A DNA stretch of 64,000 bases from an uncultured Owenweeksia sp. (GTDB lineage: Bacteria; Bacteroidota; Bacteroidia; Flavobacteriales; Schleiferiaceae): positions 1 through 64,000 of the forward strand of contig CAKZRR010000044.1 in NCBI GenBank assembly GCA_937146805.1, given 5' to 3'. The notes beneath the pieces were generated by a model, which saw only the letters and a list, made by a program, of their open reading frames with translations, was not told the DNA's origin and did no database searches. Numbering within the stretch: the first letter of the stretch is position 1; the number at the start of each line of letters is the position of its first letter. The translations under genes were made by a program, and so were the position numbers. Below, piece after piece: positions 10,390 to 21,167 of the stretch.

Positions 10390-10442
10390 CCCAAAGAAAA
10401 TTTTGGATGTAAAAACGTAAGGAAACGATATAGGCGAAAAGC

Positions 10443-10538
10443 CTAGACCTTATTCCGTGTTATGCTAGAAAAACTGAAAGGGGTAAATGCCTGCTGCTTG
10501 AACAGAAATGAATGTCGTAGAGTAGAGATTCGTTTCAT
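10443..10538 (-). CDS. Short leader ORF (31 residues) upstream of the PKD gene
   Basis: The reading frame starts MKRISTLRHS and ends before the PKD gene with a 53-base gap. It has no clear signal peptide or domain. It is listed because it would be the first ORF on the PKD transcript (about 28 bases below the predicted start site) and because its first 22 bases match, with one difference, the first 22 bases of the leader ORF on the opposite side of this intergenic region. It may be a regulatory leader peptide or merely a by-product of the repeated DNA. Confidence 0.3.
   Translation of the reverse strand: MKRISTLRHSFLFKQQAFTPFSFSSITRNKV
10517..10538 (-). repeat. Left arm of a 22-bp inverted repeat
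   Basis: Read on the minus strand, the segment begins ATGAAACGAATCTCTACT and ends CTAC. It equals 11205-11226 on the plus strand except for position 6 (A here, G there). The 11-base core TAGAGTAGAGA (10518-10528) occurs again as a direct copy at 10550-10560. Confidence 0.9.
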
Positions 10539-10572
10539 AGTTTATAATTTAGAGTAGAGAGATTATTCATTG

Positions 10573-10601
10573 CCAAATGTAAGGATAAATTATTGTTACA
10601 A
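10573..10601 (-). promoter_or_regulatory. Promoter of the PKD/porP operon
   Basis: Minus-strand -7 box TACATTTG (10580-10573) fits TAnnTTTG exactly, with a TTG at 10601-10599 placed 18 bases upstream as the -33 element. Transcription would start near 10566, giving a leader of about 175 bases before the PKD start codon. Confidence 0.6.
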
Positions 10602-11168
10602 GCTAAAAATGTGAGTGTTATACTTCTGTTTTTGTTATTTGTGTAGGCTAAAAAAAGAGAGTATTTTTTGAAAAATCACGACTTGCTCTCATTTCAGACT
10701 CTAACTTTTTCTACAAGTAAAAAATCAAAATAAATACCAACTTTTTTTATCGTTGAGGGCAATATTCCATGTTTTGATGAAAACAGGCTTTTAAAAAGGA
10801 GGGCTTTTTGGCTTAAAATGTTGTGAATTATGATTGGAGATCATTTAACTTTTAAGACGTACCAAATAATATGGAATCTTGGTTGCGAAAAGTGGTAAAA
10901 AAGACAATAACCCAGTCGCTTTTAAGAAATATAAGCCCAAATAGCTGTAGGGTAAATCATTGATATTTGATGATTTGTAGAATATACGGGATAGAGGTCA
11001 AATTTTTTTTGTTGAATAAGTTGTTGAAAAAATGATAATCACAAATCCATTAAAACTACCAATAGTAATGGGAAACCTTTAGTTTTGGCGTGTAGAAAAA
11101 GTTATAGTACACAACTGTTCTTTGAATTTAAATTGCTGTTGTTTAGTTTATTATGTGAGTTTTCCGTT
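10602..11168. other. AT-rich divergent intergenic region
   Basis: No convincing gene. The stretch is AT-rich with several runs of A and T. A second exact TAnnTTTG box (TAGTTTTG) lies at 11090-11097 on the plus strand and could be an alternative promoter for the SprB-repeat gene. Nothing else was recognised. Confidence 0.5.
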
Positions 11169-11176
11169 TAACTTTG
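11169..11176 (+). promoter_or_regulatory. -7 box of the SprB-repeat gene promoter
   Basis: TAACTTTG is an exact TAnnTTTG match. Initiation would be near 11183, about 22 bases before the leader ORF. A well-spaced TTG -33 element is not obvious. Confidence 0.55.
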
Positions 11177-11204
11177 GAGTTCACATAATTTAAAAACACT
11201 AACA

Positions 11205-11226
11205 ATGAAGCGAATCTCTACTCTAC
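11205..11226 (+). repeat. Right arm of a 22-bp inverted repeat
   Basis: It begins ATGAAGCGAATCTCTACT, covers the start codon and first seven codons of the 52-residue leader ORF, and mirrors 10517-10538 with a single mismatch. Confidence 0.9.
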
Positions 11227-11363
11227 TCGTTTTAGCCTGTTGGCTAGTGTTGTTATTTGTAGTAAGCACCGTAACCTTATCCTTAGAGATAAGTAAGCAG
11301 AACCAAATGGCAGCGGAAGAATCTGAAAAGAAAAACCCGGAAATAGCGTACTCGGCTCCCTAG
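11205..11363 (+). CDS. Small membrane or leader peptide (52 residues)
   Basis: The frame reads MKRISTLLVLACWLVLLFVV and continues to a charged tail EESEKKNPEIAYSAP. A single hydrophobic segment covers residues 7-27, so it could be a membrane peptide or an uncleaved signal. It starts about 22 bases below a consensus -7 box and precedes the giant SprB-repeat gene by 173 bases, so it would head that transcript. No family is recognised. The 99-codon frame on the opposite strand here is not supported. Confidence 0.5.
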   Translation: MKRISTLLVLACWLVLLFVVSTVTLSLEISKQNQMAAEESEKKNPEIAYSAP

Positions 11364-11376
11364 GTTTTTTTGATCT

Positions 11377-11472
11377 CTCAGTTTCTTGCTCCAACAAGTG
11401 CTGAGTCGATGAGTACCTGCTCAATTTTGGGCGGGTACATATGATAAGGAATTTGGCTTTCCACGGAAAGCC
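11377..11472 (+). promoter_or_regulatory. Three consecutive hairpins in the leader of the SprB-repeat gene
   Basis: Hairpin 1: CTCAG and CTTG (11377-11388) pair with CAAG and CTGAG (11395-11405). Hairpin 2: GTACCTGC (11413-11420) pairs with GCGGGTAC (11431-11438), with one G-T pair. Hairpin 3: GGCTTTC (11455-11461) pairs with GAAAGCC (11466-11472) around a four-base loop. They fill the space between the leader ORF and the adhesin start codon. No known riboswitch family is recognised and no T-run follows, so simple termination is unlikely. Confidence 0.45.
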
Positions 11473-11536
11473 TGCAAATGATGAAATTCTTTTGGGATAC
11501 CAAAAGATAACGACCACACAACTCTAAGGTTAAAAC

Positions 11537-18692: not shown

Positions 18693-18926
18693 ATGCCCTT
18701 CGGGATGATAATGCCAGAGCACTCTTATACTTCTGAATCGTATAGAGATGGGTTCAAAGGAAAAGAAAAAGATGATGAAGTGTTCGGAAATGGGAATCAG
18801 TGTGATTATGGCTTTAGATCTGAAGAAGGTATAAAAGGAGCTACCCAGTACCTTGAGGAAAACTATTCAGATGTTAAAAACGAGATAATTGAAAGAATGT
18901 CTAAAAGAAATGAAAGTAAAGAATAA
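18693..18926 (+). pseudogene. RHS repeat-associated core fragment
   Basis: The 77-codon frame begins MPFGMIMPEHSYTSESYR and continues GFKGKEKDDEVFGNGNQCDYGF, which is the RHS core signature normally written PFGM-MPERS...YRYGFNGKEKDDEV-G-GNQYDYG-R. A stop codon stands immediately before it, and the usual continuation R-I-Y-x-P-R-x-G-x-F-L-S-x-D-P is missing; the frame instead runs into an unrelated charged tail. An RHS protein normally has hundreds of residues of YD repeats before this point, and none are seen. This is the relic of an RHS polymorphic-toxin gene and marks the following genes as its likely cargo. Confidence 0.75.
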
Positions 18927-19314
18927 GGTACAATCAATTATCGTTTTAATATTGGTCAGTTGTGCTACCGTTATGGAATGTACTGGTCAATTTAAGTCAA
19001 GCCAGCTCATTGGGAAATGGGACTGTGTTGACTCAAAAGAAAAGGATGAGAACCCAATCTTTGGAGATGGAGAAGAGAAGTGTACATCCAAGCTCGAATT
19101 TTTTCAAGATCATGTTTATTCCTACTTGTATGGGGAAAGATACAAGTTTGATTTTTCGATAATTGATGGTGATATACTTCAGTTAGGCAATAGTTATTAC
19201 GAAATACTTGAGCTTGGTAAAGATCAAATGGTTTTAAAAGAAACAAGGCTAAACAATCCCGAGATTCTTCTATTTAGAGATGAGTTAACATATGTGCGCC
19301 AAAAGGAAAAATAA
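18910..19314 (+). CDS. Small lipoprotein, lipocalin-like, possible immunity protein
   Basis: From the ATG at 18910 the protein is 134 residues, with a lipoprotein signal peptide ending LILVSC. The mature part (SSQLIGKWDCVDSKEK..., then alternating strands to DELTYVRQKEK) has the GxW start and length of small lipocalin-like beta-barrel lipoproteins common in Bacteroidota. A TTG start 21 bases upstream is less likely because it adds a charged stretch before the signal peptide. It overlaps the end of the RHS fragment by 17 bases and precedes the candidate toxin gene by 9 bases. Lipoprotein immunity proteins occur next to RHS toxins, but the role here is inferred only from position. Confidence 0.6.
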   Translation: MKVKNKVQSIIVLILVSCATVMECTGQFKSSQLIGKWDCVDSKEKDENPIFGDGEEKCTSKLEFFQDHVYSYLYGERYKFDFSIIDGDILQLGNSYYEILELGKDQMVLKETRLNNPEILLFRDELTYVRQKEK

Positions 19315-19323
19315 AATTGGTTT

Positions 19324-19677
19324 ATGAGGTTAGTAAATAATTCTGATAAGACAATTATTGTTGGTAGGAAAATGGACGACATTAAGAAAATGAAAAATAA
19401 ATTGGGAAAAAATGATCCGAATTTAATGACATTTGACCCTTCACCACTAGCAAAAAAAGAATGGAATGAATATTTAAAGAAGTACGGAAATAATGTTCCA
19501 GATGAAATTGTGAAAAATTCCGAACTCTATAAGGAGAATGCAAAGTGGATTAGAGGGGCAATGGATGGGGGATTTAATGTAATTGATTTAGGTACTGTTA
19601 ATGGTGGAGGGAAAGGTACGTTTTATGAGATGGAGTATAATGAAATAGTTAAAAAGCATGGAAATGGAGGCATTTAG
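19324..19677 (+). CDS. Orphan C-terminal toxin-like domain of an RHS/polymorphic toxin
   Basis: A 117-residue soluble protein without signal peptide. The first part (KTIIVGRKMDDIKKMKNKLG) and the end (NAKWIRGAMDGGFNVIDLG then FYEMEYNEI) recall the C-terminal domains of RHS proteins whose last 100 residues read W-I-x(6)-G-x-x-I-I-D-I-G ... F-Y-x-M-E. I recognise the pattern but not a characterised toxin family, so the activity is unknown. It sits 400 bases after an RHS core fragment and overlaps the next gene by 20 bases, the usual spacing of a toxin tail and its immunity gene. The tail has lost its delivery part, so it is probably an orphan cassette or relic. Confidence 0.55.
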   Translation: MRLVNNSDKTIIVGRKMDDIKKMKNKLGKNDPNLMTFDPSPLAKKEWNEYLKKYGNNVPDEIVKNSELYKENAKWIRGAMDGGFNVIDLGTVNGGGKGTFYEMEYNEIVKKHGNGGI

Positions 19678-20164
19678 GCAATTGGAAATCGCGATTAGTG
19701 AACGGTTAAATTGGTTAATTGGATTGGGTTATGTAAGGAGGCCTAGTGAACGCGGAAAATTTGGAACTGTGGTAGAATCACATCGAATTTGGTTTGACTG
19801 TAAGAAGTTGAATAGGCGTCTCCTTGTTGATTTTCAACCGTTTGATGTTATTAAAACTGAAATTAATTTTATATCGGTGCGATTGTACAGGTACAGCGAG
19901 ATGGATTATATTGCCATCGGATTGCTTGCGGAGAAGCATTTACGTTGTACGCTCTATAATGAATATTTAGGAAAAAGTATGGACAGAAATTTCCCTTCGA
20001 ACCTGTCTAATAGTTTAAATTCTATTTCTAAGTATCTACTGAGATATGGTCTGGGCTTTCTTGAGGGTAAAGAATGGGAAGCTGGTTTAGATTATGAAAT
20101 AACTGATGAAACTTGGGATAGACTTTATGATGAACAAAGTAAGAAGATAAATGGTGATTCATAG
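19658..20164 (+). CDS. Candidate immunity protein for the preceding toxin-like gene
   Basis: A 168-residue cytoplasmic protein with no signal peptide or membrane helix and no family I can name. It contains a conserved-looking core RIWFDCKKLNRRLLVDFQPF and an acidic C-terminus (DYEITDETWDRLYDEQSKK). The start codon lies inside the end of the toxin-like gene (20-base overlap), with a second possible start six bases later. Acidic, soluble partners encoded directly after RHS toxin tails are typically immunity proteins that bind and block the toxin. The assignment is by context. Confidence 0.5.
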   Translation: MEMEAFRQLEIAISERLNWLIGLGYVRRPSERGKFGTVVESHRIWFDCKKLNRRLLVDFQPFDVIKTEINFISVRLYRYSEMDYIAIGLLAEKHLRCTLYNEYLGKSMDRNFPSNLSNSLNSISKYLLRYGLGFLEGKEWEAGLDYEITDETWDRLYDEQSKKINGDS

Positions 20165-20188
20165 TGTTCTAAATTAGTTTCTTAACAC

Positions 20189-20641
20189 ATGATTAGTTAT
20201 AATTACAAGGTTACATTATCTGACATGCTCGCTGCCTTTAATTTATACGAGCCTAATTTTAATAATTTTCTTTTTCAGTTTTACGAGAATAGGATTGCAC
20301 TGGGGTGGACGGGTATTGCGTTTAAAAATCAAGATGCTGCCAATACTGGAGCAATGTCTTTTCATTTTGGATCAGAAGGAGGTATTAGCATAGGATATCA
20401 ACAATTTACGGGTTCGATAATAGGAGGTCCAAAGCCAGGGGCCGGTGCTTATCCTCAAACAAGTTTTCAACAATCCTTTAATCGAGCGAATACATTTTTA
20501 CAACTTGGGGATGTAAGAACTGATTTTAGTACACATCCTTGGATGCAGAATCTTCTTCACGATAATGTAACGGGAAATCCTCATTTCAATCATCAGAATT
20601 ATAATTTTAACTTATTTGGTATATCCGGTGTTCCGTATTAG
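20189..20641 (+). CDS. Unrecognised small protein in the toxin/immunity stretch
   Basis: 150 residues, no signal peptide, rich in Phe, Asn and Gly (SFHFGSEGGISIGYQQFTG) with a His-containing end (NPHFNHQNYNFNLFG). The composition suggests short beta strands and loops rather than a helical enzyme. No family is recognised. It is followed, with a 26-base overlap, by a lipoprotein gene, which repeats the pattern of the pair just upstream and suggests a second toxin tail with its immunity gene. The first codons (MISYNYKVTLSDM) do not look like a natural N-terminus, so it too may be a detached C-terminal domain. Confidence 0.45.
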   Translation: MISYNYKVTLSDMLAAFNLYEPNFNNFLFQFYENRIALGWTGIAFKNQDAANTGAMSFHFGSEGGISIGYQQFTGSIIGGPKPGAGAYPQTSFQQSFNRANTFLQLGDVRTDFSTHPWMQNLLHDNVTGNPHFNHQNYNFNLFGISGVPY

Positions 20642-21167
20642 TCTCCTTCTTTTTAGTTATTTTTTTTGTGTAGGCTGCATGAGCAGATACCAGACTCGTT
20701 ACGGCCTTTATAGACCTGAGAAACCTAGGTTCACGATTAAGTCTTGCTTTAAAGACATAAAGGAACTTGACAATGTGCCTTTTGATGTTCAGATGGGCTA
20801 TCAAACATATACTGAAAATTATGATGGCTTGTTGTATAGAGATGTAATGCTTTTTTCGGAAGACGGAAGATTTTGTGCGATACCAATGATCGATGAAGCA
20901 AAATCGGAGTTGTTATACGTAGATAGAAATCCATGGTTGATAGCTGATCAGGTTGGTTTCTACATCTTACTAAACGACACCTTAAAAGTTGAATATTTTA
21001 CAAACTTTCAAGGTGGTCAATATCACTCTTTTACAGGGGTTATAGACGAGAGTGGAACACTTCGGATTTATGAATACTATCAAGGCTTAGGGAGGCATAA
21101 GGTCGAAATAAATAAACCTCACCGATCAAAGCTTAGTCGAGTAAAGAAGGTGGTTGTAAGTTATTAA
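20616..21167 (+). CDS. Lipoprotein, possible immunity protein of a second pair
   Basis: 183 residues starting at TTG. The N-terminus (YPVFRISLLLFSYFFCVGC) is a lipoprotein signal peptide with Cys at residue 21, which supports this start although it overlaps the previous gene by 26 bases. The mature protein (MGYQTYTENYDGLLYRD..., DTLKVEYFTNFQGGQYHSF, TGVIDESGTLRIYEYYQ) reads as an all-beta domain of unknown family, anchored in a membrane facing the periplasm. Its place after an unrecognised toxin-like frame makes an immunity role possible, but the sequence alone does not show it. Confidence 0.55.
   Translation: MVYPVFRISLLLFSYFFCVGCMSRYQTRYGLYRPEKPRFTIKSCFKDIKELDNVPFDVQMGYQTYTENYDGLLYRDVMLFSEDGRFCAIPMIDEAKSELLYVDRNPWLIADQVGFYILLNDTLKVEYFTNFQGGQYHSFTGVIDESGTLRIYEYYQGLGRHKVEINKPHRSKLSRVKKVVVSY

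Follow-up and report, generated by a model that had tools for sequence, protein, structure and literature searches.

A probable mirrored divergent promoter region between two giant adhesin genes in an uncultured Owenweeksia sp.

Invertons, exemplified by the Bacteroides fragilis polysaccharide promoters and fimS, are intergenic segments with inverted repeats that lie beside surface-protein genes. In known switches the inverted repeats are short and may contain mismatches, and the recombinase may be distant (PMC5903667). A different architecture, general among bacteria, is the divergent promoter with a regulator site on each arm, in which two outward promoters carry the same site in the same orientation to each gene at conserved distances. 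Promoters of the Bacteroidota primary sigma factor have a -7 box with the consensus TAHHTTTG, as refined in Flavobacterium johnsoniae (PMC6847099). In a flavobacterium, amino-acid operons are reported to be controlled by leader-peptide attenuation (PMC9723704). Template switching is known to make the arms of imperfect inverted repeats alike; a yeast study looked for such events at spacers of up to 70 bp (PMC8604942).

Here we describe a locus in a 64,000-nucleotide stretch of DNA (the window) from an uncultured Owenweeksia sp. The locus resembles invertons in that an intergenic segment with inverted repeats lies beside surface-protein genes, but it differs from them in having two outward promoters, an unconserved repeat, no recombinase found on its contig and, judged by spacing, the same orientation in all relatives examined. 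Its likeness to divergent promoters is that of two outward promoters with the same site on both arms, in the same orientation to each gene and with spacing conserved between species. It differs from them in that the arm distances are unequal (the predicted site center lies at about -82 in the plus arm but at about -138 in the minus arm) and in that the regulator is putative.

Layout of the locus and the 22-bp mirror repeat

The locus consists of two divergent giant genes and the gap between them (Table 1). An earlier note on this DNA had claimed giant type IX secretion system (T9SS) adhesins on both sides, and our analysis agrees: the proteins carry SprB or PKD repeats and a C-terminal CHU_C match, although that of the minus-strand protein scored 26.7 bits, just under the cut-off of 27. 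A PorP/SprF gene (540-1670) comes after the giant PKD-repeat gene. The divergent adhesin pair also is present in two congeners, G002 (a complete chromosome) and G003, and the intergenic gap (10390-11536 in the window) measures 1147, 1084 and 1464 bp in the window, G002 and G003, respectively. The locus comparison covers three species of one genus; in a fourth congener either the locus is missing or the genome is incomplete. Homologues of the PKD-repeat giant in other genera have neither the leader nor the divergent partner.

We also noted five adjoining plus-strand ORFs of 117-183 aa (18889-21167 of the window) directly 3' of the SprB-type adhesin gene, none of which had a Pfam match.

Table 1. 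Features of the divergent adhesin locus (window coordinates)
Feature	Position	Strand	Remarks
Giant PKD-repeat secreted protein, 2914 aa	1645..10389	-	Weak CHU_C end
Minus leader ORF, 31 codons	10443..10538	-	Start alike as DNA; protein constraint not seen
Minus copy of 22-bp repeat	10517..10538	-	Start of minus leader ORF, ATGAAACGAATCTCTACTCTAC
Second CTCTACTCTA copy, minus 5' untranslated region	10548..10559	-	Tandem to 22-bp repeat
-7 box TACATTTG, minus transcript	10574..10581	-	Fits TAHHTTTG
Upstream site, minus arm, TGTAGAAAAAGTTAGA	10700..10715	-	Starts 134 bp before the first base of the -7 box; kept in G002 and G003
Upstream site, plus arm, TGTAGAAAAAGTTATA	11091..11106	+	Starts 78 bp before the first base of the -7 box; kept in G002 and G003
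-7 box TAACTTTG, plus transcript	11169..11176	+	Fits TAHHTTTG
Plus copy of 22-bp repeat	11205..11226	+	Start of plus leader gene, ATGAAGCGAATCTCTACTCTAC
Plus leader gene, 52-aa small membrane protein (predicted), MKRISTLLVLACWLVLLFVVST...	11205..11363	+	Homologues at same place in G002 and G003
Giant SprB-repeat adhesin, 2334 aa	11537..18541	+	CHU_C type IX secretion signal

The earlier note had described a 22-bp mirror repeat at the two leader starts, and its position, its identity (21 of 22 bases) and the ATG and MKRISTL start at each copy all proved correct. When extended, the arms reach 26 nt with a 92% match (10517-10542 and 11201-11226). With up to 3 mismatches allowed, the 22-mer was found at only two sites in the 3.16-Mb genome, both at this locus, and no other inverted pair (22 nt, at most 1 mismatch, 60-1500 bp apart) was observed in 464 kb sampled from the same genome. 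The gap was shuffled 300 times with dinucleotides preserved, and the top 22-nt inverted match was at most 20, compared with 21 in the real sequence. Because the shuffles reach at most 20 of 22, a chance origin is excluded; the near-identity of the two 22-base stretches was made or maintained by some process.

Outside the 22 bases the two sides had been said to differ. This description was incomplete, since a second mirrored repeat (the upstream sites in Table 1) had been overlooked, and the tandem CTCTACTCTA copy directly upstream of the 22-bp repeat on the minus side also had been missed.

Upstream sites, promoter boxes and orientation of the segment

The second mirrored repeat has the form TGTAGAAAAAGTTA(T/G)A, and its minus-arm copy differs from TGTAGAAAAAGTTATA by one mismatch. 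In each of the three species both arms carry the site, oriented toward the respective gene, with 0 to 2 mismatches to the site consensus across the six arms (the next best matches have 3 to 5). An unguided 14-mer scan of the six arms returned TGTAGAAAAAGTTA as the top word, with 3 mismatches in total compared with 15 to 18 in shuffles. Counted from first base to first base, the upstream site and the -7 box of the plus arm are 78, 78 and 79 bp apart in the three species, and those of the minus arm 134, 135 and 134 bp. The intervals between the elements gave alignment z-scores of about 0, i.e., no alignable similarity across species. Because the DNA in between shows no such similarity, selection must maintain both the upstream site and its spacing.

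To our knowledge, TGTAGAAAAAGTTATA resembles no recognized motif. A wider regulon for the site was not supported by a search of 88 family genomes, which contained 6 exact copies (3 of them at this locus) compared with 3 for the reversed control. One extra exact copy in the window's own genome (G000:C33:66239-66254; L051:1501-1516) lies between two tandem secreted adhesin-like ORFs. Its orientation is opposite to that of the flanking ORFs, and it may be due to chance.

The -7 boxes that had been placed 20 to 30 bases above the leader ATGs are indeed present; the distances are 28 bases on the plus side and 35 on the minus side. All six boxes (both arms, three species) fit TAHHTTTG and in this core do not differ from Bacteroidota primary sigma factor promoters (PMC6847099). 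The predicted 5' leaders at the six promoters are about 24 to 44 nt long.

These features suggest that the gap is probably a divergent promoter that co-regulates both adhesins via matched sites. The 22-bp near-identity most likely arose by lineage-specific homogenization of the arms rather than by functional inversion. The gap would comprise two mirrored outward modules, each consisting of an upstream site, a -7 box, a leader start and a giant adhesin gene, with the 22-bp repeat forming the start region of the two leaders. Judging from this architecture, one putative regulator would bind both upstream sites and switch on both adhesins jointly, and the plus leader membrane protein would be made together with the SprB-type adhesin. 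The earlier note had included among its alternatives an element that co-regulates both adhesins. Co-regulation fits our data, although the conserved element that would mediate it is chiefly the mirrored upstream site rather than the 22-bp repeat.

The other alternative offered there was an invertible segment, in which a site-specific recombinase would recognize the 22-bp repeats, flip 10539-11204 and so exchange promoters and upstream sites between the adhesins. Near-perfect inverted repeats do bound an intergenic segment of fitting size, next to surface-protein genes, and a flip would leave both leader starts in frame. The genome also encodes several tyrosine recombinases, all on other contigs; imperfect repeats and recombinases encoded elsewhere both have precedents among known switches (PMC5903667). 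However, inversion would bring the 134-bp spacing to the plus side. This is not seen, so the window's segment is in the same orientation as that of its relatives, and this spacing fingerprint is shared by all three species. An outward TAHHTTTG box lies inside each end, so that a flip would swap promoters without any ON/OFF switching. The repeat also is part of a protein-coding start that is under constraint, and no further genomic site carries its sequence. The earlier note had proposed searching related genomes for the 22-bp pair; the 22-mer was absent from 59 of 59 relatives. In the congeners that retain both adhesins the repeat as such is missing: the plus and minus leader starts agree at 12 of 22 bases in G002 and 15 of 22 in G003, compared with 21 of 22 in the window. 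Such an absence from close relatives was the finding that the earlier note had named, as far as relatives are concerned, as speaking against inversion. Searches for recombinases detected none of the serine type in the genome and none of the tyrosine type on the 109-kb contig; since recombinases can act from a distance (PMC5903667), this absence alone is a weak argument. With like spacing in three species, an outward promoter at both ends and an unconserved repeat, the invertible segment is unsupported, and we consider it very unlikely.

Leader ORFs and possible signals at the start codons

Both transcripts had been said to begin with a leader ORF. The plus ORF does behave as a protein gene, but the minus ORF does not. 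Comparison of the plus leader with its G002 homologue (25 codons) gave a pS of 0.83 and a pN of 0.12, and the protein contains one strongly hydrophobic stretch (hydropathy of 2.7 over 19 residues). Its homologues were found only at this position, in three species of one genus, and Pfam analysis of the leaders returned only matches far below the cut-off. The substitution pattern shows purifying selection on the plus leader, which with its hydrophobic stretch is a genuine small membrane protein; its distribution and lack of a Pfam match above the cut-off mark it as a new genus-restricted family. For the minus leader ORF, comparison with G003 gave a pS of 0.55 and a pN of 0.59. Because pS about equals pN, no protein constraint is visible, and 18 of 22 bases at its start are the same as in G003.

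This difference between the leaders bears on leader-peptide attenuation, in which translation of a short leader would control transcription into the giant genes. Both transcripts are headed by short ORFs, hairpins occur between leader and giant gene, and the plus leader-to-giant distance is steady (332, 330 and 335 in the three species), all of which would be compatible with the flavobacterial precedent (PMC9723704). Against this, the plus leader encodes a membrane protein under constraint and has no run of regulatory codons, the minus leader lacks protein constraint, and the hairpins vary between species and are without convincing T tails; no conserved terminator was found. Attenuation is the least probable of the explanations considered here, and we regard it as highly improbable.

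Other short sequences also were noted. A 13-mer, CCACACAACTCTA, is common to the window (11497-11536) and G002, where it lies about 20 to 28 bases before the start codon of the plus giant gene. In G001 and G002 a similar pair, TGTAGAAAAAGTGATA ... TACTTTTTCTACA, is found near the end of the same gene in both genomes (L048 and L056, approximately 1501-1560) and is perhaps a terminator or a repeat. An Rfam search returned nothing above threshold.

The start codons themselves might carry a signal that acts at the RNA level. One small RNA or RNA-binding protein could recognize CTCTAC/ACTCTA words near the leader and giant starts and so adjust the translation of both transcripts, with the 22-bp repeat as its strongest site pair. 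In the six 5' transcribed regions ACTCTA occurs nine times in sense, for the most part close to a leader or giant start codon, and never in antisense, and it is not enriched at starts generally in the window's genome (5 seen versus 6.5 expected at 317 starts). Codon choice also is identical in both 22-bp copies beyond what the shared peptide requires. However, the motif was picked after the repeat had been seen, and 4 of the 9 occurrences are in the window itself. G002 has one ACTCTA copy here, and its starts show a mild general enrichment (11 seen versus 4.8 expected). An antisense RNA gene with the full complement is absent elsewhere in the genome. Overall, we consider such a target unlikely. 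The more elaborate proposal, that the CTCTACTCTA start-codon element and the upstream site tie translation of the two giant type IX adhesins and the new membrane protein to one signal via a shared small RNA or RNA-binding protein, is in our estimation a distinctly unlikely one.

Origin of the near-identity and implications for adhesin regulation

Because the arm starts are only partly alike in the relatives, the near-identity belongs to the window's lineage alone. G002 and G003 have ATGAAACGTTACTCC in common in their plus starts; at five sites the window's plus start has a different base, and at four of the five the change is toward the window's own minus start. This pattern suggests that one arm served as the template for rewriting the other. 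The rewriting would have occurred in the window's lineage, through template switching or through gene conversion involving the two imperfectly repeated inverted arms, where both arms already had the common ATGAAA...CTC start pattern; its direction rests on few sites (four of the five at which both relatives agree). The likeness to repeats homogenized by template switching (PMC8604942) is that the arms are imperfect in relatives and near-perfect in one lineage, with several neighboring bases changed together, whereas the spacer here is 666 bp, compared with the searched limit of 70 bp. We consider arm rewriting the likeliest cause of the near-identity, the alternative being a shared start-codon signal.

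On the sequence comparisons presented here, the locus is most likely a divergent promoter of mirrored, conserved design that serves two giant adhesin genes; the near-identity of its start regions is lineage-specific, and its architecture suggests co-regulation. A near-perfect inverted repeat beside surface genes is not necessarily an inverton, and comparison of congeners can argue against inversion even without reads. The regulation of T9SS giant adhesins has been little studied, and a site whose distance from the promoter box is fixed in each arm of a divergent adhesin pair would offer a direct handle on it. The genus-specific small membrane protein that may be made with one of the adhesins would provide a further handle on this locus.
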